A stretch of DNA of 64,000 nucleotides from Bacteroidota bacterium (lineage in GTDB: Bacteria > Bacteroidota > JABWAT01): assembly GCA_013360915.1 (NCBI GenBank), contig JABWAT010000011.1, positions 1-64,000 on the forward strand, written 5' to 3'. Both the position numbers and the translations under genes were made by a program. Positions 50,352 to 64,000 of the stretch are shown in pieces. The notes below the pieces were generated by a model that saw nothing but the letters and a program-made list of their open reading frames with translations, searched no databases and was not told the DNA's origin. The first letter of the stretch is position 1; each line of letters begins with the position of its first letter.

Positions 50352-51447
50352 ATGCTGGAACCACAGAAAGAACAGTTAAAAGACCTTCAATCAAGAACCT
50401 CTGATCTGCGGAGGTTTCTTTGACCTCGACAACAAGACAGCTCAACTGGCCAAATTAGAAGCCTCTACCGAAGCGCCGGGTTTCTGGGATGATAACCGGA
50501 AGGCCAAAGCGCACATGAAAACCATCGATGAAGTCAAATCCTGGGTAACCAGTTTTAAGTCGGTCAGCCGGTTGGTTGATGATGCACAGGCGTTTTATGA
50601 ACTGGCCATTGAATCGGAAGACGAATCGCTGGCAGGCGAATTGGATGGCGAAATCCGCAAAGCTGAAACGGCTTTGAAAGATCTGGAACTCCGTCAGATG
50701 CTGGCAGGTCCCGATGACAACCGGAATGCCCAGATGGTGATCAACGCCGGTGCCGGCGGAACCGAAGCACAGGATTGGTCCGAAATGCTGATGCGGATGT
50801 ATGTGAGGTGGGGTGAGAAACGCGGATACACCGTTAACATTGCCGATATTCTCGAAGGCGACGGTGCCGGTATTAAATCGTGTACCATCGAATTTGAAGG
50901 TCCCTTTGCTTACGGATATCTGAAAGCCGAAATCGGAGTTCACCGGTTGGTTCGTATCTCTCCCTTCGATAGCAACGCCCGTCGTCATACGTCCTTCTCA
51001 TCGGTTTTCATCTACCCTGAAGTCGATGACGATGTCGAAATCACCGTCAATCCGGCCGATATCGAAATGGATACCTTCCGGTCGGGAGGAAAAGGCGGAC
51101 AGAACGTGAACAAGGTCGAAACGGCCGTGCGTCTGCGGCACCTTCCAAGCGGAATCGTGGTTTCCTGTCAGCAGGAGCGAAGCCAGTTACAGAACCGGGA
51201 ACGGGCAATGAAAATGCTCAAAGCACGGCTGTATCAGGCCCGCCGCGATGAAGAACAGGCCCGGCTCGATGCCATTGAGGGAACGAAGAAGAAAATTGAG
51301 TGGGGAAGTCAGATCCGGTCATACGTGTTTCACCCCTACAACCTGGTGAAGGATCTGCGAACCGATTTCGAGACCAGCGATGTGCAGGGTGTCATGGATG
51401 GTGATCTGGATGAGTTCATCAAAGCCTACCTGCTGGCCGGTAAATAA
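50352..51447 (+). CDS. prfB: Peptide chain release factor 2, with programmed +1 frameshift
   Basis: RF2 ends translation at UGA and UAA. The first 23 codons run from ATG at 50352 to an in-frame TGA at 50421. The rest (341 residues) continues in the +1 frame from GAC at 50422, giving 364 residues, the normal RF2 length. Signature motifs are SPF ([18 protein letters not shown]) for stop-codon reading and GGQ ([15 protein letters not shown]) for peptide release. The frameshift allows autoregulation: low RF2 raises frameshifting. The gene lies 32 bases before alr. Confidence 0.96.
50411..50424 (+). other. prfB programmed +1 frameshift site
   Basis: GGAGG (50410-50414) acts as an internal Shine-Dalgarno three bases before the slippery CTT TGA C (50418-50424). 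The classic site has TAT before CTT; here it is TTT. This matches the known RF2 autoregulatory frameshift. Confidence 0.93.
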
Positions 51448-51479: not shown

Positions 51480-52622
51480 ATGGATAAACGCACCTGTGCA
51501 GTGGTCAATCTGGGAGCTATCCGCAGCAACCTCAGGCAGGTGAGATGGTGGATTGGTGCCGGCCCGAAAATCATGGCGGTCGTAAAGGCCAATGCCTATG
51601 GTCATGGCATCGAAACCGTCAGTCGGGCGCTGGCCGATGCAGGAGCCGATTATCTGGCCGTGGCCAGTACCGATGAAGCCCGGCGCATCAGAGAATTCGG
51701 CGTCTCCAGACCCATTCTGGTTTTCGGAAATCCCGATCCGCTCTGTATCAGGGATTATTTCACCCTTGATCTGGAAGTCTCCGTTTCTGATTATGAAACG
51801 GCCCGGTTTGTGAGCGATGAAGCCATCCGCGCAGGCCGCAAACCCGATGTTCATCTGAAGATTGATACCGGCATGGGACGGTACGGACTCATGCAGCGCG
51901 AACTGGAACGGGAACTTCCAAAAATTGCCGCTTTGCCGGGAATCCGTTTAAAGGGTTTGTGGAGTCACTTTCCGAACGCAGATGATGCCTCGCCCGATTT
52001 TACCATCAGTCAGATCAGGCGTTTTCAGGATTGTCTGGAGATTGCCGACCGGCTGAAGGTGGAAGTGGAATTGAAACATGTCGCCAATTCGGCGGCGACT
52101 CTGTATTATCCTGATGCCCATTTTGACATGGTTCGTCCGGGATTGCTGTTGTACGGGTATGCACCCCAGGGTCTGATCAACGCACCGATCATTCTCACCC
52201 CAGCCTTGTCGCTGATTTCGCACGTGAGTCTGGTGAAACGGATTGCAGCCGGAACGCCCGTTTCTTATGGCAGTTCCTGGAAATCCTCGGCTGAAACCGA
52301 TCTGGCCGTCGTTCCCATCGGCTATGCCGACGGAGTGACCCGTGCTGTCAGCAACCGGCTGAAAGTGGTGATCAATGGAAAGCGGTATCCGCAGGTGGGG
52401 AATGTCACCATGGATAATATCATGGTGAATCTGGGCCTGAATCACGATGTGAAAAAGATGGATGAAGTGGTCATCTTCGGTGAACAGATGGTGACCGCCG
52501 CCGATGTGGCACGGTGGAGCAATACGATCCCCTGGGAAGTTCTGTGCGGAATCACCGGACGGGTTCCACGGGTCTACACCGACAAAGAACCGGCCATTGT
52601 GCAACCGGTTCTGGAAAAATGA
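51480..52622 (+). CDS. alr: Alanine racemase
   Basis: A 380-residue PLP enzyme making D-alanine for peptidoglycan. The PLP lysine is Lys36 in AVVKANAYGHG. The catalytic Tyr lies in PVSYGSSWKS, and VPIGYADGVTRAVSN and GNVTMDNIMVNLG follow as in the family. The C-terminal domain is complete. It is followed after one base by the nucleotidyltransferase gene. Confidence 0.96.
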   Translation: MDKRTCAVVNLGAIRSNLRQVRWWIGAGPKIMAVVKANAYGHGIETVSRALADAGADYLAVASTDEARRIREFGVSRPILVFGNPDPLCIRDYFTLDLEVSVSDYETARFVSDEAIRAGRKPDVHLKIDTGMGRYGLMQRELERELPKIAALPGIRLKGLWSHFPNADDASPDFTISQIRRFQDCLEIADRLKVEVELKHVANSAATLYYPDAHFDMVRPGLLLYGYAPQGLINAPIILTPALSLISHVSLVKRIAAGTPVSYGSSWKSSAETDLAVVPIGYADGVTRAVSNRLKVVINGKRYPQVGNVTMDNIMVNLGLNHDVKKMDEVVIFGEQMVTAADVARWSNTIPWEVLCGITGRVPRVYTDKEPAIVQPVLEK

Positions 52623-52623
52623 G

Positions 52624-52977
52624 ATGATAACGATCGACCTGACGAATGGATATAAAGTTCCGACCGCGGAAGAAGCGCTCATCCTGATTAAAAACAAGGT
52701 GTTGAGCGTTTTTCCTGCCGACCGGTACACGGTTTTTTTATTCGGAAGCCGCGTAACCGGACATGCCAACCAATTTTCAGATTATGATATCGGCGTGATC
52801 GGACCCGAACGGATTCCCATCACGATTCTGGGTGATCTGAAGGAACAATTGGATGAGTCGATTATTCCGTGTTTTTTTGATGTGGTCGATTTCAGTCGCG
52901 TATCAGAGAGATTTTACCGCACAGCAACAGAGCAGGTGGAAATATGGCAGCAAGGCCCGGTTACACTGAAAGATTGA
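52624..52977 (+). CDS. mntA: MNT-domain nucleotidyltransferase (MntA-like antitoxin)
   Basis: A 117-residue minimal nucleotidyltransferase. GSRVTG (41-46) and the metal-binding DYD (Asp53, Asp55) in FLFGSRVTGHANQFSDYDIGV are the catalytic signature. In MntA/HepT systems the protein AMPylates a Tyr of the HEPN toxin to silence it. It starts two bases after the alr stop and overlaps the HEPN gene by 34 bases. The frame extends upstream inside alr but GAG-ATG at 52624 fits better. Confidence 0.9.
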   Translation: MITIDLTNGYKVPTAEEALILIKNKVLSVFPADRYTVFLFGSRVTGHANQFSDYDIGVIGPERIPITILGDLKEQLDESIIPCFFDVVDFSRVSERFYRTATEQVEIWQQGPVTLKD

Positions 52978-53354
52978 ATGATTTAAACCGGTTGATTCAT
53001 ACTCTATCAGGTATGAATGACCTGTTAAGTCAGGAATCGGATGAAAAGGTTCGGGATTTATTAAAGACCGGATTTATCAAACAATTTGAAATGTCGGTTG
53101 AACTGTCATGGAAAGTCTTGAAATCGATCCTTAGCGCACAGTTTGGAGTAGAACTTGCCAGTCCGAAACCGATTGTGAAGGAAGCCAACAGGCAGGGCAT
53201 TTTATGCAAAGAGGATTTCGAAATTCTTTTTCAGGCCATTGATTTAAGAAATCAGGCCGCTCATCTGTATCAGGATGAACTTGTGGATGAGATTCTCGAC
53301 TTTATTCCGGGTTATTGCACCCGAATGAAAAGCTGGATCAATCAACTGAAGTAA
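52944..53354 (+). CDS. hepT: HEPN-domain toxin (HepT-like)
   Basis: A 136-residue all-helical HEPN protein. The RNase/AMPylation motif Rx4HxY is exact: Arg102, His107 and Tyr109 in LRNQAAHLY. With the MNT gene it forms a two-gene toxin-antitoxin unit. Related proteins (HI0074 type) were first called nucleotidyltransferase substrate-binding proteins. The pair sits between housekeeping genes alr and lysS. Confidence 0.9.
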   Translation: MAARPGYTERLNDLNRLIHTLSGMNDLLSQESDEKVRDLLKTGFIKQFEMSVELSWKVLKSILSAQFGVELASPKPIVKEANRQGILCKEDFEILFQAIDLRNQAAHLYQDELVDEILDFIPGYCTRMKSWINQLK

Positions 53355-57456: not shown

Positions 57457-59070
57457 TCAGGGCAACAACTCCAACCCCAGCTCCTTTAGGAAGCCGTTGT
57501 GTGTGTCCTTCGCCTTACGGATTTCCTGCTCGATCTGAAGCAATGAGCGGTTGGTTGCCTCAAGGTCAATTTCCTCCTCACCAACGGCGGTGCTGATGTA
57601 GCGCGAGATGTTCAGGTTAAACTCGTTTTTCCCGATCTCTGACATCGGTACACGACGGGAGTAACGGTCTTCTTCCGTGCGGTATTGGTAGGTGTCGACG
57701 ATTTTGCGAATGTGCTCCGGCGCGAGTTGGTTCTGACGTTTGCCTTTGACAAAATGCCCGGCGGCATTGATGAACAGCACGTCGTCCGGCTTTTTGCACT
57801 TTTTGAGCACGAGAATGCAGACGGGAATGCCGGTAGAGTAAAACAGGTTGGCTGGCAGACCGATGACGGTGTCGATATGGCCGTCTTTGAGCAGCTTGGT
57901 GCGAATGCGTTCTTCGGCTCCGCCACGGAACAGCACGCCGTGGGGCAGAATGATGGCCATGACGCCTTCGTCTTTCAGGAAGTGGAAGCCGTGCAGCAGA
58001 AAGGCGAAATCGGCGGCAGACTTGGGCGCCAGACCGTGACTCTTAAAACGCACATCGTCGGCAAGGGCATCGGTCGGTTCCCAGCGGTAGCTGAATGGTG
58101 GGTTGGCTACAATGGCATCGAAACTGGGCTTTCTGGCCGGATTTTCTTCGCGCATCATGCCCCATTCGTTGAGCAGGGTGTCGCCGTGGAAGATGTCGAA
58201 CTCGGTGTCCTTCACCCCGTGCAGCAGCATGTTCATGCGGGCCAGGTTGTAGGTGGTGATGTTCTTTTCCTGACCGTAGATTTTGCCGATGGTGCCACCT
58301 GCTTTGGACACCTTTTTTCGCACATTGAGCAGCAACGAGCCAGACCCGCACGCAAAGTCCATCACATTTTCCAGGCGCTTCCTGGGGCCTGTTTTGGGTT
58401 CCTGGCTATCGAGCGTAACAATCGCTGAAAGGATATCGGAAATCTGTTGCGGGGTATAAAACTCGCCGGCCTTTTTGCCCGACCCGGCGGCAAACTGACC
58501 GATCAGGTATTCATACGCATCGCCGAGGGCATCGATGTCGGTGGAGAACTCAGATAGCCCTTCTGCGATTTTCTGGATGATGGCACACAGCTTGGCATTG
58601 CGCTCTGCGTAGGCTTTTCCGAGCTTCGGTGAAGCAAGGTCAATCTCAGAGAACAGCCCTTGAAACGTGCTCTCGAAGGATTCTTCTTCGATGTACTTGA
58701 AGCCGGCTTGCAGCGTGTTCAGCAGCTCCGCGTTCTGGGTACGGGCCATGTTGGCAATGCTGTTCCAAAGGTGCTGGGGCTGGATGACGTAATGCACCTT
58801 ACGCCGCATCTGCTTCTCGAACTCCGGTACGTCGGCCACATTGTTGGCATACCAGATAGCCAGCGGTACTTTGCGGGCATCTCCGCCTGCGTCGGGGTAA
58901 TCCCGCCCAAGTTCTTTTTTTGCCGCCGTTTCGTAATTATCGGAGAGGTAGCGCAAGAAGAGGAAGGACAGCATGTAGTCGCGGAAATCGTCTGCATCCA
59001 TTGCTCCGCGTAGTTGGTCGGCGATGCTCCAGAGGGTGTTACCCAGTTGTTTTTGGTTGGTGGCGGTCAT
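57457..59070 (-). CDS. hsdM: Type I restriction-modification DNA methyltransferase subunit
   Basis: A 537-residue N6-adenine methyltransferase. The HsdM N-terminal domain (QKQLGNTLWSIADQLRGAMDADDFRDYML) and the methyltransferase domain are complete, with SAM loop DFACGSGSLL and catalytic motif NPPF (VANPPFSYRW). The C-terminal helical region probably contacts HsdS (LEATNRSLLQIEQEIRKA). It is the last gene of the leftward operon and starts 41 bases after the helicase gene. No HsdR gene is in the window. Confidence 0.94.
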   Translation of the reverse strand: MTATNQKQLGNTLWSIADQLRGAMDADDFRDYMLSFLFLRYLSDNYETAAKKELGRDYPDAGGDARKVPLAIWYANNVADVPEFEKQMRRKVHYVIQPQHLWNSIANMARTQNAELLNTLQAGFKYIEEESFESTFQGLFSEIDLASPKLGKAYAERNAKLCAIIQKIAEGLSEFSTDIDALGDAYEYLIGQFAAGSGKKAGEFYTPQQISDILSAIVTLDSQEPKTGPRKRLENVMDFACGSGSLLLNVRKKVSKAGGTIGKIYGQEKNITTYNLARMNMLLHGVKDTEFDIFHGDTLLNEWGMMREENPARKPSFDAIVANPPFSYRWEPTDALADDVRFKSHGLAPKSAADFAFLLHGFHFLKDEGVMAIILPHGVLFRGGAEERIRTKLLKDGHIDTVIGLPANLFYSTGIPVCILVLKKCKKPDDVLFINAAGHFVKGKRQNQLAPEHIRKIVDTYQYRTEEDRYSRRVPMSEIGKNEFNLNISRYISTAVGEEEIDLEATNRSLLQIEQEIRKAKDTHNGFLKELGLELLP

Positions 59071-59111
59071 GTCTTCAATATATATGTGAGTCGGTCGGGA
59101 CGAATTGTCTA

Positions 59112-60845
59112 TTACGGCGCGAATTCTGAGACATTCTCTGCTCCAAACCAGTTTTGGAGCGTTTCTAAAGCTGGCACAGAGAGGCTCTGCGTAAATAGTA
59201 GTACCAATTTATTCTTTGGCCGAGAACAAGCCACATAAAACAGATTTCTATTTCGTAGGTAGGTTGCTTCTTTATCGCCGGGAAAACGATTAGGAAACCA
59301 CTCAAGAAATTGGCTCCAGTTGTAGTGATTCCATCCCCGGCCAAAAACTACGAGGACGTTTTCGAACTCAGCGCCCTTAACACCATGTTTTGTTGCAAAC
59401 GGAGTATGGTCATTAATGAAAGCCGCCAATGAAATCAATTCGGTATATGGAATTAGCTTTAACCTATTTATCTGCTTAAGTGTAACTGAACTCTCTATCT
59501 CCTCTGGAGTAGATGATTCAAGTTTTTGCTGAGTCCTAAGCACAGAATCTGGGAGTTGCGGTTTTCTTGTTTCCTTTAAGAGTTGAAGAACTTCACCAAT
59601 TGTCCCGGTCTCCCTGACTTGAATAAGTTGACGCATATCTCGCGCCCATTCAAGCTTTTCTAACTGGTTAGTCAGCCTACCGGCTTTATTTCCAAGAATA
59701 TCAAACATCTCACCAAATCTACCGGCACAAAATGCTGCACAAGCTGGTTCTACCGTATCCACCAAAAAAGCAATATGCGGATCCTCTTTCCTAATTAATC
59801 CATCGGTAAAATCAAAGGATCCAAGAATCTGACTGTAGTTTTGCTCAGATGCTAGGACATTGTGGGTCAGCATCAGAATCTTTGTGTTTTTTGGTGAAAA
59901 ATCCCAACCTACGCTTGCCAGTTGCCTACGTAAAGCCTCAAGGTGGTTGTGTGCATCAGTTGCAGGAAGATCCCCCCCCCAGTGACCTCCGGTTTGACGC
60001 TGACCTGCAAAACTATTGGTATGAAATACTTTAGCAGAACCAATTGCGGCTGGATTGCTGACTTGTTGGGGGAGCTCAGGTCTAATCCGATTCAAAACAT
60101 CTACTATCGCTGGGGCTGATCGAAAATTCGCCTCTTTTCCTATTGCGCGGAGTTTTGGATGATCTATACTGCCAGCGCCAGTTGGATAGATTTTCTGCCA
60201 ACTGTCACCGAAAAGCCCGATGAGTGGCCCGCGCTCAGTTTCCACAAAGTTTCGAATTATACTGTCAGCGAAATCTTTGTCTGTATCCTGATATTCATCA
60301 ATAAAGAGCACTGGAAACCTTGAACTGAGAATTCTGCGAAACTTACGGTTCTCCATCAGTGCCACTGTAAGCTTTAAGACATCATCATGATGCAAAAGTA
60401 TCTCGTTGTCGGTGACCCGCCGATGCCCTAATTCATAATTGATTCGTCGCCGTCTAATCCCACCAGCCTCATTAATTTTCTCAGCCAATTGAGGAATATT
60501 CAGAACCTCAGTTCGCAGCGCCGATTGGAAACTTTTGCACAAATCCCAACAAAATGAATGTATCGTTGACGCTTGGATGATAGGATTGCCGTCTGTGCGT
60601 CTCACAATTTCGGCTGTCGCTACATTGGTATAAGTAATACAAGCCACTCGCTTGTTTTGGCGTACAAACTGAGATCCGTTCTCTTCGATTAGTAGATTTA
60701 GCGCCCTTACGAGGGAATATGTTTTACCCGCCCCGGCTCCCGCTTCGAGCCTAAAACTTTTTTTCTCCCGAATACACCGGAATACCTCATCCAGAGCCCT
60801 TTGTGAAGCAAGCTCTGCTGGATTCAAAAGCGCTACGTCAAACAT
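59112..60845 (-). CDS. UvrD/Rep-like helicase, GajB-like
   Basis: A 577-residue superfamily 1 helicase. Walker A is EAGAGAGKTYSL, motif II IDEYQDTD, then GDSWQKIY (motif III) and FYVACSRPKNKLVLLF (motif VI). In Gabija, GajB senses DNA or nucleotide depletion and works with the GajA nuclease. The start at 60845 overlaps the upstream nuclease gene by eight bases. A run of nine G on the coding strand (59972-59980) falls in HWGGDLP near residue 290. Its composition is AT-richer than the surrounding core genes. Confidence 0.85.
   Translation of the reverse strand: MFDVALLNPAELASQRALDEVFRCIREKKSFRLEAGAGAGKTYSLVRALNLLIEENGSQFVRQNKRVACITYTNVATAEIVRRTDGNPIIQASTIHSFCWDLCKSFQSALRTEVLNIPQLAEKINEAGGIRRRRINYELGHRRVTDNEILLHHDDVLKLTVALMENRKFRRILSSRFPVLFIDEYQDTDKDFADSIIRNFVETERGPLIGLFGDSWQKIYPTGAGSIDHPKLRAIGKEANFRSAPAIVDVLNRIRPELPQQVSNPAAIGSAKVFHTNSFAGQRQTGGHWGGDLPATDAHNHLEALRRQLASVGWDFSPKNTKILMLTHNVLASEQNYSQILGSFDFTDGLIRKEDPHIAFLVDTVEPACAAFCAGRFGEMFDILGNKAGRLTNQLEKLEWARDMRQLIQVRETGTIGEVLQLLKETRKPQLPDSVLRTQQKLESSTPEEIESSVTLKQINRLKLIPYTELISLAAFINDHTPFATKHGVKGAEFENVLVVFGRGWNHYNWSQFLEWFPNRFPGDKEATYLRNRNLFYVACSRPKNKLVLLFTQSLSVPALETLQNWFGAENVSEFAP
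59972..59980 (-). repeat. Poly-G9 tract inside the GajB-like gene
   Basis: The coding strand has nine consecutive G (TGG GGG GGG GAT, W-G-G-D). It is the longest C/G run noticed in the window and a possible slippage site. It could also be an assembly-sensitive point. Confidence 0.7.
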
Positions 60846-62898
60846 CCGCTTGCTCCTCGGCTGCGGGGAGGATCTCGCCATCCGCTGGTAATGGTAGGGT
60901 TGTTTCATCAATTTGACCAAGCCACCGAAGCCCTTCTTCTATATAACGCGGAATCACCCAATCCGTCTCATTGATCGCATATTTCAGAGCAAATTCACTC
61001 TTTTTGATATCAAGGGACATATCCCACGCATGAGTTTCCATCTCCTGCACGGTCGAACCGTTAACAGTAAACTTATCTGTATTGGCTAGTATGAAAGCGT
61101 CCTCAAAGCTTCGCCCGCAGGCTCCGCCATCTAGATGAGGAATCTGGAATGCAATTCGACGGCACCCAAAAGCCTTATCAGCACTAGATTTGGACAACAA
61201 ATCCCGGATAGCGGGGCTGTTCTCACCGCTTGGGTCAAACCATCGGTTTATCGAAGTGTTGCTTGATTTGCGCCCTTTGGAAACGGGGCATTTCGTCCAG
61301 CGAGTCTTGCCACTATCAGCGGTAGTTTGTTCGACTGCATCGAGATCGGTTATGACAAGGGTTCGGAGTTCTAGGAAGTCGATCAAATGGTAGAACAGAT
61401 GAGCATAGGCCCCCCCGACCTCCATTATTGAAAGGTATTTACCACCGATATTGCGTCCGTTTTGTATGTCGAATTTTTCAATCGCCTTTGGTAAAATGAG
61501 ACGTTCCGAAGTGCCTTCTACCAAGATTGCCGCATCTGCGAAGAACAAGTCGCAGCGGGTTAGCGTCATATATTGATGGAGAAATTTCAAATTATCTGGC
61601 TCTTCACTAGTCAATTCAGTGCGAAGATCTTTTGAACGGGTACTTAGAATGCTAGAGCCTTCCTCACGCGGTTTGGTAAGGAAATATCGCATTGCGCTAA
61701 AAGATGCTTCATTAGCAATGTGTGATGAATGGGTCGTCAACACGAATTGCACGGGCCATGTGGTCCCACCATTATAATTTGACTCAAACATCGCGCGAAT
61801 TTTGTTGAGTTGTCGGATGAAAACCGACTGCATTTGTGGATGCAAGTGTGCTTCAGGCTCCTCTATGAAAATAAGTTGAACTCCAGCTTGTGGCTGCCGA
61901 GTAGCGAATTCACGAAAGAGTTCAAAGAGCTTGAGTAATATGAAAATCAAATTTCTAGGACCAAGTCCATTGTAGGACTCCGGTAAATTGACTCCTTCAG
62001 GAATCGGCCCAGCATAAGTCACTGTTGTATGGTTGGAGAGTAGCTGTTGGACATCGAATTGCGTTTCTGTCCGGAGTTTGGGATCTGAAAGTCCAGGGTA
62101 CCCAAACAGTTCAAAAGTAGGAGCAAGCGCTTGTAACTGTCTATTGAAATTTGAGTCTATTTCGGTCTGGACTTCTTCGACGGCTTCTTTCAGTTCCCGT
62201 GCTCGTACCTGGTCGTCAGTACCCGTAGATGCGTAAGAAGCGGAAGTAAATATTCGCTCGAAAACCTTTCCCAAAACCGCCTTTTCTTTATTCGAAGCAT
62301 CGTCTAATGCTCGTTGAGCGTTAATAAACCCAAACTGTAAAACGGCCCTTAAATCAGCGCTGTCTACGACCTTTGTATTGGTTGGATCGTTCGGGTCTTG
62401 AGCTTCAATCCTAGCCTCAAAAAGCTTAGGAACTCTGTCGCGAAGTTCACGAAAAAAGGCCAGACGATCGTTGCTAAGATCGGCAAAAAAATTTTTGATC
62501 TTGCCAGAGGCAACCTCATAGATGACTTGAACTTTTGCTGTTGTACATGTCTCGTTGATATCAACGATAAATTCGGAAAGAGTTCCAAAATCTATATCTC
62601 CCGAATAGTCAATTAAGAGCGAAACTGAAATCGCAGGCAGTCGTTCCCTAACCACTGCGTCTTCTTCGCTATTTCTGAAAAGCTCCCGTGCTTCCCAAAA
62701 CTTCTCGTGCATTCCTAGTGAGAAATCTTCAAGGCGGAATTTTGGGGCGCTTTCTGCCAATAGGCGCCGGAATAACTCAGTAAGTGATGTTTTGCCGCTA
62801 TTGTTACGCCCAACGATGAGCGTCGTATCGTTCTCGAGACAAATCGTAACGTCCTCGAGAAGTCGAAAATTTTTAACGGTGATTTCTTTGATTTTCAT
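60838..62898 (-). CDS. OLD-family ATP-dependent endonuclease, GajA-like
   Basis: A 686-residue protein with an N-terminal ABC-type ATPase (Walker A VGRNNSGKTSL; Walker B FIEEPEAHLHP) and a C-terminal TOPRIM nuclease (AILVEGTSERLILP with the metal Glu, and VITDLDAVE). This is the layout of class 2 OLD nucleases such as GajA of the Gabija anti-phage system, and the next gene is the matching helicase. It is somewhat longer than typical GajA. The start at 62898 (MKIKEITVKNFRLLEDV) is two bases after the hsdS stop. A G7 run lies at 61410-61416. AT-rich codon use suggests lateral origin. Confidence 0.87.
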   Translation of the reverse strand: MKIKEITVKNFRLLEDVTICLENDTTLIVGRNNSGKTSLTELFRRLLAESAPKFRLEDFSLGMHEKFWEARELFRNSEEDAVVRERLPAISVSLLIDYSGDIDFGTLSEFIVDINETCTTAKVQVIYEVASGKIKNFFADLSNDRLAFFRELRDRVPKLFEARIEAQDPNDPTNTKVVDSADLRAVLQFGFINAQRALDDASNKEKAVLGKVFERIFTSASYASTGTDDQVRARELKEAVEEVQTEIDSNFNRQLQALAPTFELFGYPGLSDPKLRTETQFDVQQLLSNHTTVTYAGPIPEGVNLPESYNGLGPRNLIFILLKLFELFREFATRQPQAGVQLIFIEEPEAHLHPQMQSVFIRQLNKIRAMFESNYNGGTTWPVQFVLTTHSSHIANEASFSAMRYFLTKPREEGSSILSTRSKDLRTELTSEEPDNLKFLHQYMTLTRCDLFFADAAILVEGTSERLILPKAIEKFDIQNGRNIGGKYLSIMEVGGAYAHLFYHLIDFLELRTLVITDLDAVEQTTADSGKTRWTKCPVSKGRKSSNTSINRWFDPSGENSPAIRDLLSKSSADKAFGCRRIAFQIPHLDGGACGRSFEDAFILANTDKFTVNGSTVQEMETHAWDMSLDIKKSEFALKYAINETDWVIPRYIEEGLRWLGQIDETTLPLPADGEILPAAEEQADV

Positions 62899-62900
62899 TT

Positions 62901-64000
62901 TTATTGTATTCCAGTCTGTGTGTTTGTAGAAGGAAACAACCCCTGCATAAGCCCTTTTTTGTGCGTCTTGAGAGCGTCCATCTTTTGGGTTTCGGCGGTG
63001 ATAAATTCGTCTAGTTTGCTCAGGCAATCCGCGATTCGTTGTTGTTCAGTCGCGTTGGGGAAGAACAACACAAACTCTTTAAGATGATCAAGTTCAATCT
63101 TTCCAGCACCGATTCCAGTTTCGTTGATTGAGAAACGGGATTGAAAAGCTAAAAGCTGGTAAAGAAGAAATCCGGTTTTAATAGAACTATCCAAGTCAAG
63201 CGCTTTAACATCTTGATTGAACGCCACGTCAATTCCAGCAACGCAAATAGGTACGCGCTTAAACAGCATGCTCCCGCGAACAAGAATCAAAATTGATCCC
63301 TTCTTAGCGATTCGAGTACCGTTGCCAATAGCAAGCGGCGCCACGTAATGGTCAGCCTTTTCGACTACAAGATCATACATCGACGAAGCACTGACCCACG
63401 GAATAGTTCCATTCCAATACTCTGGATTGTCTTTCGATGGTGTCCCCCCTGAAGAAAATGACGCAATGCTACCAAGAGGCTTCATCTCCCACTCCCCATC
63501 ATCCTGAAACTCCGGAAAGCGCAGTCTTGGCACGGTTTCGCCTTCGCGGGGGAAAAGCTGCTGCATCAGGCCTTTTTTATGGGTTTTGAGCGCGTTCACT
63601 TTCCGGGCTTGGGCGGCAATCAGCTCGTCCAGCGAACTCAGGCAATCGGCGATTTTTTGTTGTTCGGGGAGGGATGGGAAACCTAAGCAAAGCGAGGCGA
63701 TATTGTCTTTAGTGAAGCCTTTGATAGATGTTCCTTGATTGAAAGACAGCAGAGTCTCTTTATTAGACTTCAACAAATAAGCTAAGAACAACGTCAACGT
63801 CTCTGCATCGGTAGTTGTGAAATTCGTGAAGTCTTGACTCGTGCAAAGAGGGAATGTTGAAACTGCGAGCTTTCCAACACCCACCCTTGAAACAAGGAGA
63901 ATGCTTTTCGCAGGTAATATCTTTGTCGCCGATTCTTGAACTGCCTGTTTTGTGATAAAGCGGGATATGTTGATTTGAGAAAGCGAGTCCTCATTCAAGT
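62901..64000 (-). CDS. hsdS: Type I restriction-modification specificity subunit (5' partial)
   Basis: The last 366 residues or so of HsdS, running off the right edge. The visible part starts within the first target-recognition domain, then the central conserved helix (LPEQQKIADCLSSLDELIAAQARKVNALKTHKKGLMQQLFP), a second target-recognition domain (EWEMKPLGSIASFSSGGTPSKDNPEYW), and the C-terminal repeat of the helix (TEQQRIADCLSKLDEFITAETQKMDALKTHKKGLMQGLFP). The two helices are near-copies, which allows domain shuffling. It lies directly upstream of the GajA-like gene. Confidence 0.93.
   Translation of the reverse strand, partial: LNEDSLSQINISRFITKQAVQESATKILPAKSILLVSRVGVGKLAVSTFPLCTSQDFTNFTTTDAETLTLFLAYLLKSNKETLLSFNQGTSIKGFTKDNIASLCLGFPSLPEQQKIADCLSSLDELIAAQARKVNALKTHKKGLMQQLFPREGETVPRLRFPEFQDDGEWEMKPLGSIASFSSGGTPSKDNPEYWNGTIPWVSASSMYDLVVEKADHYVAPLAIGNGTRIAKKGSILILVRGSMLFKRVPICVAGIDVAFNQDVKALDLDSSIKTGFLLYQLLAFQSRFSINETGIGAGKIELDHLKEFVLFFPNATEQQRIADCLSKLDEFITAETQKMDALKTHKKGLMQGLFPSTNTQTGIQ

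Follow-up and report, generated by a model that had tools for sequence, protein, structure and literature searches.

The question raised by this locus is why a nuclease/helicase pair resembling the Gabija defence system lies between the specificity and modification genes of a type I restriction–modification (R-M) operon, and whether the pair came there with the operon or separately from it. The stretch of DNA analysed, here called the window, comprises bases 1–64,000 of a 72,511-base contig, the remaining part of which was also read. All six genes of the operon are located on the minus strand, in the transcription order hsdR, a DUF1016/YhcG nuclease gene, hsdS, gajA, gajB and hsdM (Table 1). 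The original prediction had given the leftward order hsdS, nuclease, helicase, hsdM with gaps of 2, −8 and 41 bases, and this proves exact with start codons supported by homologues: hsdS and gajA are separated by 2 bp, gajA and gajB overlap by 8 bp, and 41 bp lie between gajB and hsdM. It had also remarked that HsdR is missing from the visible part, which is correct for the window. Rightward extension finds hsdR on the same contig, 1.4–4.5 kb past the window edge, so the gene is not truly missing, and it likewise places the start of hsdS outside the window. In effect, the type I set is complete, with hsdR, hsdM and hsdS intact on one strand and in one operon, and every reading frame of the operon is intact.

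Farther upstream, hsdR overlaps the DUF1016 gene, which is followed by hsdS after 97 bp. Chance does not account for overlaps and 2-base gaps among large conserved open reading frames that share a strand. Because the junctions are nearly coupled, the operon genes are likely co-transcribed, as had been proposed for the four genes visible in the window. Scans for promoters and terminators, internal ones included, gave chance-level matches only, and a single promoter is therefore an assumption. As regards base composition, the nuclease and helicase genes are indeed AT-richer than hsdM, as claimed (GC content of 45.6% and 44.6% versus 55.0%); hsdS, at 46.9% GC, is AT-richer than hsdM as well, so that AT-richness alone cannot mark gajAB as the sole foreign part. 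The corresponding values for hsdR and the DUF1016 gene are 54.3% and 53.4%.

Table 1. Coordinates of the operon genes and of the cargo slot between hsdS and hsdM
Feature	Coordinates	Strand	Position in operon	Evidence
hsdR	contig 68518-65438	-	first gene of operon, beyond window	EcoR124_C 1.5e-68 + HSDR_N
DUF1016/YhcG PDDEXK nuclease gene	contig 65478-64297	-	beyond window, between hsdR and hsdS	YhcG_C 4.1e-56 + DUF1016_N
hsdS, 432 aa, two target-recognition domains	64199-62901; window part 62901..64000	-		Methylase_S 3e-41, two stretches; PADLOC Specificity_I 2e-85
gajA, class 2 OLD-type ATPase/TOPRIM nuclease, 686 aa	60838..62898	-		PADLOC GajA PDLC00063 5.5e-267
gajB, UvrD-like SF1 helicase, 577 aa	59112..60845	-		PADLOC GajB PDLC00113 1.8e-251; ATG at 60845 homology-supported
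hsdM, type IC methyltransferase subunit, 537 aa	57457..59070	-	last gene of operon	N6_Mtase 2.1e-102, HsdM_N, PADLOC MTase_I 1.4e-156, EcoR124II M 7.4e-85
S-M cargo slot	59071..62900	-	hsdS stop to hsdM start	slot census; homology with kin back at hsdM ATG

Two further features of the window are worth recording. At 52621-53354, a nucleotidyltransferase gene (Polbeta/NTP_transf_2) overlaps a gene for an NTase substrate-binding (HepT-like) protein, forming a pair that resembles toxin–antitoxin systems of the MNT/HEPN type. The gene prfB (release factor 2), at 50353-51447, carries the classical signal for programmed frameshifting, GGAGGTTTCTTTGAC, which ends at 50424, and the ORF caller reports only a 310-aa part of it.

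The R-M frame is assigned to type IC and is EcoR124-like, because HsdR bears an EcoR124_C domain and HsdM matches the M subunit of EcoR124II. Additionally, the part of the contig beyond the window (the hsdR and DUF1016 genes) gave a PADLOC PDC-S02 match at 7.9e-130. The location of the pair inside a type I operon, as originally described, is thereby confirmed and specified.

The identity of the pair was examined by defence HMMs, by motifs and by predicted structure. GajA contains AAA_15 (4e-54) and C-terminal OLD-like_TOPRIM (3.9e-16) Pfam domains, and GajB contains a UvrD domain. The catalytic motifs of GajA, namely the Walker A sequence GRNNSGKTS (K36), the TOPRIM glutamate E461 and the DxD residues D518/D520, are invariant in 29 homologues, and the Walker A sequence GAGAGKT and DEYQD box of GajB are invariant in 25. 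These motifs are the counterparts of the active-site motifs described previously (PMC10781630, PMC8136825). AlphaFold2 models (GajA: pLDDT 82, pTM 0.78; GajB: pLDDT 86) were compared with the PDB. For GajA, the best matches of the model are the GajA structures 8x5i and 8u7i (E values of 2e-19 to 3e-19; TM-scores by target length of 0.55–0.64), and the OLD nuclease TsOLD (6p74) is matched at 2.5e-18. The GajB model is nearer to UvrD/PcrA/Rep folds, with solved GajB ranking 29th. A profile search retrieves both the GajA (5e-14) and the GajB (4e-12) chains. Identity to the characterised Bacillus cereus proteins is only about 15%, and no sequence feature sets GajA apart from other class 2 OLD nucleases (PMC8136825), from whose non-defence members the PADLOC assignment was the sole discriminator used; on account of both points, “Gabija-type” is the safe name. 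A non-Gabija nuclease/helicase family was considered and rejected on the PADLOC models. In summary, the pair is of Gabija type by HMM and motif and, for GajA, by predicted fold as well, in agreement with the original prediction, and we regard the operon anatomy and this identity as practically certain. No second GajA-like gene was found in the genome, in which the OLD/AAA_15 search gave three weaker matches elsewhere.

The meaning of this position becomes apparent from relatives of the operon. A search with the window's HsdM through 395 genomes of the same phylum gave matches in 63, and the neighbourhoods of the best loci were annotated; the class-level search took in only 4 genomes, and beyond the phylum plasmids were compared. 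The order hsdR-[x]-hsdS-[y]-hsdM is the rule in this HsdM subfamily, with interval y acting as a cargo slot. Among 28 same-phylum loci in which hsdS to hsdM is contiguous on one contig, slot y is occupied by the anticodon nuclease PrrC, a tRNA-cutting suicide enzyme, in 15, by SIR2-HerA in 2 and by Gabija in 1, which is the window. DUF1016 is found in another and one slot is empty, while a 214/217-aa protein accounts for 2 loci and small zeta-, DUF559- or transposase-like genes for the remaining 6. Seven of the 15 PrrC calls were confirmed with the PADLOC model (E values of 1e-98 to 1e-134), and the rest are based on a GKTRLS-type motif and length. PrrC was also confirmed in slot y of all six plasmid loci tested (Pseudomonas, Sediminicoccus, Methylomonas, Hymenobacter, Synechococcus and Tistrella). 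On the Methylomonas and Hymenobacter plasmids a PDDEXK nuclease is located in slot x as well, and these loci correspond to the operon of the window with PrrC replacing Gabija. PrrC itself is absent from the genome of the window. The slot is thus the usual seat of PrrC, a feature overlooked by the original prediction, which had pointed to the hsdM–hsdS loci of relatives for comparison. This suggests that slot y is a swappable socket for back-up defences.

Some individual loci of this census deserve mention. SIR2-HerA pairs occupy the hsdS–hsdM slot in two lineages (L149:9655-12500 and L163:5565-8473), with a RhuM gene following the pair in L163. In L167 (8191-11042) the slot is empty and hsdS overlaps hsdM directly, the R-S-M operon being otherwise normal. 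The 214/217-aa slot protein of L166 and L173 was read by eye as RAYT-like, a reading that was dropped for lack of a Pfam match.

How Gabija came to this slot can be approached through the phylogeny of the frame. On the HsdM tree, the clade of the window (support 99/98) has three members and three occupants: the nearest complete frames carry PrrC+RhuM (L148, HsdM 85% identical) and SIR2-HerA (L149, 83%), and the window carries Gabija. The tree as a whole requires at least 10 changes of occupant; L035 is too distant to serve as a root, L175 forms a long branch and backbone support is low, for which reason only supported clades were used. At the DNA level, homology with the nearest kin, L148, reaches to within about 30 bases of the hsdS end, and homology with kin begins again with the hsdM ATG or with the base that precedes it. 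These limits indicate that the exchanged piece was the slot itself, and Gabija was very probably swapped into it. The Gabija pairs closest to that of the window (L022, L023 and L038, with about 72% GajA identity) lie amid unrelated genes, outside hsd loci. Because the closest pairs and the closest hsd frames are found apart, the two parts have separate histories and were very probably joined by cargo exchange. Transfer as one unit, which had been suggested as an alternative to joint regulation, is not supported as the origin of the arrangement, and an ancient unit of this kind is rejected on the same evidence. The association of the pair with the R-M frame is therefore young compared with either lineage, and from now on the two may move together.

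Traces of such exchange are preserved in relatives. Beside the cargo, upstream of the full hsdM, fragments duplicating the hsdM 5′ end are present in L148 (2605-2741; 137 bp, 92%), L176 (2720-2865; 146 bp, 95%) and L153 (5762-5827; 68 bp, 85%). Such relics are as expected if cargo is brought in together with the start of an hsdM gene and then recombines into the locus, and they would represent the scars of this process. The window contains neither a PrrC relic in its 41-bp gajB–hsdM gap nor a duplicated hsdM 5′ end. With one locus of this exact frame carrying Gabija, selection for the combination is indistinguishable from chance acquisition at an insertion hotspot.

Gabija is also found next to R-M genes in other contexts. 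Among about 97 Gabija loci scanned for recurrence, gajA directly follows hsdS in three unrelated ones, namely the window (L002), L035 and L114. Locus L035, from genome G342 of the same phylum, has the order hsdM-x-x-hsdS-gajA-gajB-hsdR with junction overlaps of 1 and 5 bp, and its GajA is 33–34% identical to that of the window, which indicates an independent event. In Alishewanella agri BL06 (L114:1985-13734), the order is hsdR, an rmuC family gene, hsdM, hsdS, gajA and gajB, with 23 bp from hsdS to gajA. In four further loci (L034, L044, L095 and L100), Gabija comes after an Eco57I-type methyltransferase gene, and in L113 after a BrxL gene. Taken together, these neighbourhoods present Gabija as a portable neighbour of R-M genes, but most Gabija copies stand elsewhere. 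Within one genus, the GajA proteins of L034 and L035 are 86% identical, the former beside an Eco57I-type R-M system and the latter within a type I operon.

The biochemistry of the two slot occupants offers a basis for a functional reading. Phage end-binding or recombination proteins license Gabija on linear DNA ends that RecBCD has not processed (PMC12407980, PMC12904381), and GajB senses DNA termini (PMC10822852). PrrC, invariably linked to type IC R-M (PMC2610378), is embedded in EcoprrI, where it acts as a back-up released once T4 Stp blocks R-M (PMC3874165). The reading that we favour, with modest confidence, is that of a type IC operon whose PrrC position holds Gabija as a second line. 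A single promoter upstream of hsdR would drive all six genes, and the R-M enzyme would form the first line by cutting unmodified phage DNA. GajAB, produced from the R-M transcript, would replace PrrC in the role of second line, acting on linear DNA ends unprocessed by RecBCD (the trigger published for Pseudomonas aeruginosa Gabija) and catching phages that protect or re-join ends or disarm the first line. In other words, the slot would select back-up effectors that fire when the first-line DNA-handling complex fails, with PrrC answering blocked R-M and Gabija answering blocked end processing. This explanation does not involve a physical control of GajAB by the Hsd proteins. A second-line role of Gabija through co-expression may be given about an even chance. 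Direct Hsd control of GajAB is less likely, as GajAB is independent elsewhere.

Other explanations must be weighed against this reading. A serious rival, which we consider possible but would not expect to prevail, holds that Gabija is a passenger at a hotspot: the S–M gap would tolerate insertions, spread by recombination between hsd loci, and Gabija, present because defence genes travel in company, would act independently and gain nothing from its position. The slot also houses genes without a known defence role (zeta-like, PDDEXK_2 transposase-like and DUF559), most relatives of this Gabija are not part of an R-M locus, and recombination at this point seems to be frequent, to judge from the duplicated hsdM 5′ ends. 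Against this view, PrrC occupies the slot in most kin across several phyla, the best-studied PrrC being functionally tied to its R-M enzyme (PMC3874165). Moreover, known defence modules dominate the slot, and Gabija comes right after hsdS in L002, L035 and L114, which are mutually unrelated. A mis-assembly fusing two loci is scarcely credible; the assembly consists of 51 contigs and the operon is close to the end of one of them, but the junctions fall at gene boundaries with a 2-bp gap, homology breaks exactly at the hsdM ATG, all genes are on one strand with frames intact, and analogous arrangements are present in unrelated genomes.

A PrrC-like control of the pair, in which HsdRMS would bind or silence GajAB and release it when an anti-restriction protein of the Ocr, Stp or ArdA type blocks R-M, would account for the position of GajAB, which is identical to that of PrrC in kin. 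It would also fit a statement, made in a review, that Ocr, an inhibitor of type I R-M, triggers Gabija (PMC10286901). Nevertheless, this mechanism is improbable. Characterised GajAB forms a 4:4 complex that is active by itself (PMC10781630), close relatives of this Gabija have no linked R-M, no Hsd-binding part was found in the pair, and GajA has the same length as its free-standing homologues. A broader version regards the S–M slot as a general socket for R-M-guarding effectors, with GajAB under PrrC-like Hsd control, silent while restriction works and freed once a phage blocks it, and perhaps with a tRNA-cleaving role; tRNA cleavage is reported, as cited in PMC12904381, for an OLD relative of phage P2. 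We consider this version a touch more doubtful still.

Compared with known systems, the reading of a type IC operon with Gabija in the PrrC position has its closest parallel in EcoprrI with PrrC. Both have a type IC frame with the gene of an accessory effector, here a putative second line, embedded in the hsd operon, and the PrrC of the closest relatives lies in the S–M slot. Unlike EcoprrI, the operon described here lacks PrrC and carries a two-gene ATPase/TOPRIM nuclease and helicase instead of a single tRNA nuclease, and control of this pair by the R-M enzyme is improbable. With Gabija of B. cereus VD045 the pair shares overlapping gajA–gajB genes, domain order, motifs and the GajA fold. 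The proteins differ in length (GajA 578 aa versus 686 aa here; GajB about 494 versus 577 aa), and the B. cereus system stands alone, whereas this pair is embedded in an R-M operon.

The RptR-RMS-DarTG2 (RRDM) island of EPEC is likewise a type I R-M operon that houses a known defence module. In that island the module, DarTG2, is located between hsdS and hsdR and subject to the repressor RptR (PMC12255303), whereas here Gabija lies between hsdS and hsdM and the hsdR–hsdS interval is occupied by DUF1016. Upstream of hsdR on this contig, the ORFs encode 175 and 202 aa and are thereby longer than the gene of the 79-aa RptR, the first of the RRDM island. Campylobacter jejuni rlo/mlo loci have ORFs in both the hsdR–hsdS and the hsdS–hsdM intervals (PMC5183652), but these are other genes, mostly of uncharacterised function, in another type I family. 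Locus L035 shares a Gabija right after hsdS, overlapping junctions and a type I operon, and differs in R-M subtype and in its use of the S–R slot. Type I operons with embedded defence genes are already known from PrrC, DarTG2 and rlo/mlo; what is new here is the occupant, Gabija, and not the kind of socket. No published description of Gabija in the PrrC slot was found in a search that did not extend to the Payne 2024 preprint on embedded defences.

The slot census is the more useful part of the finding, since through it one unusual operon leads to a rule that can be tested. The near-constant hsdR-x-hsdS-y-hsdM frame, with PrrC, SIR2-HerA or Gabija alternating in close relatives, represents a natural cassette-swap experiment. 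Should slot y select for second-line effectors, other uncharacterised slot genes would be good candidates for new defence systems, and occupants compared on one frame would tell regulatory coupling from mere shared transfer.
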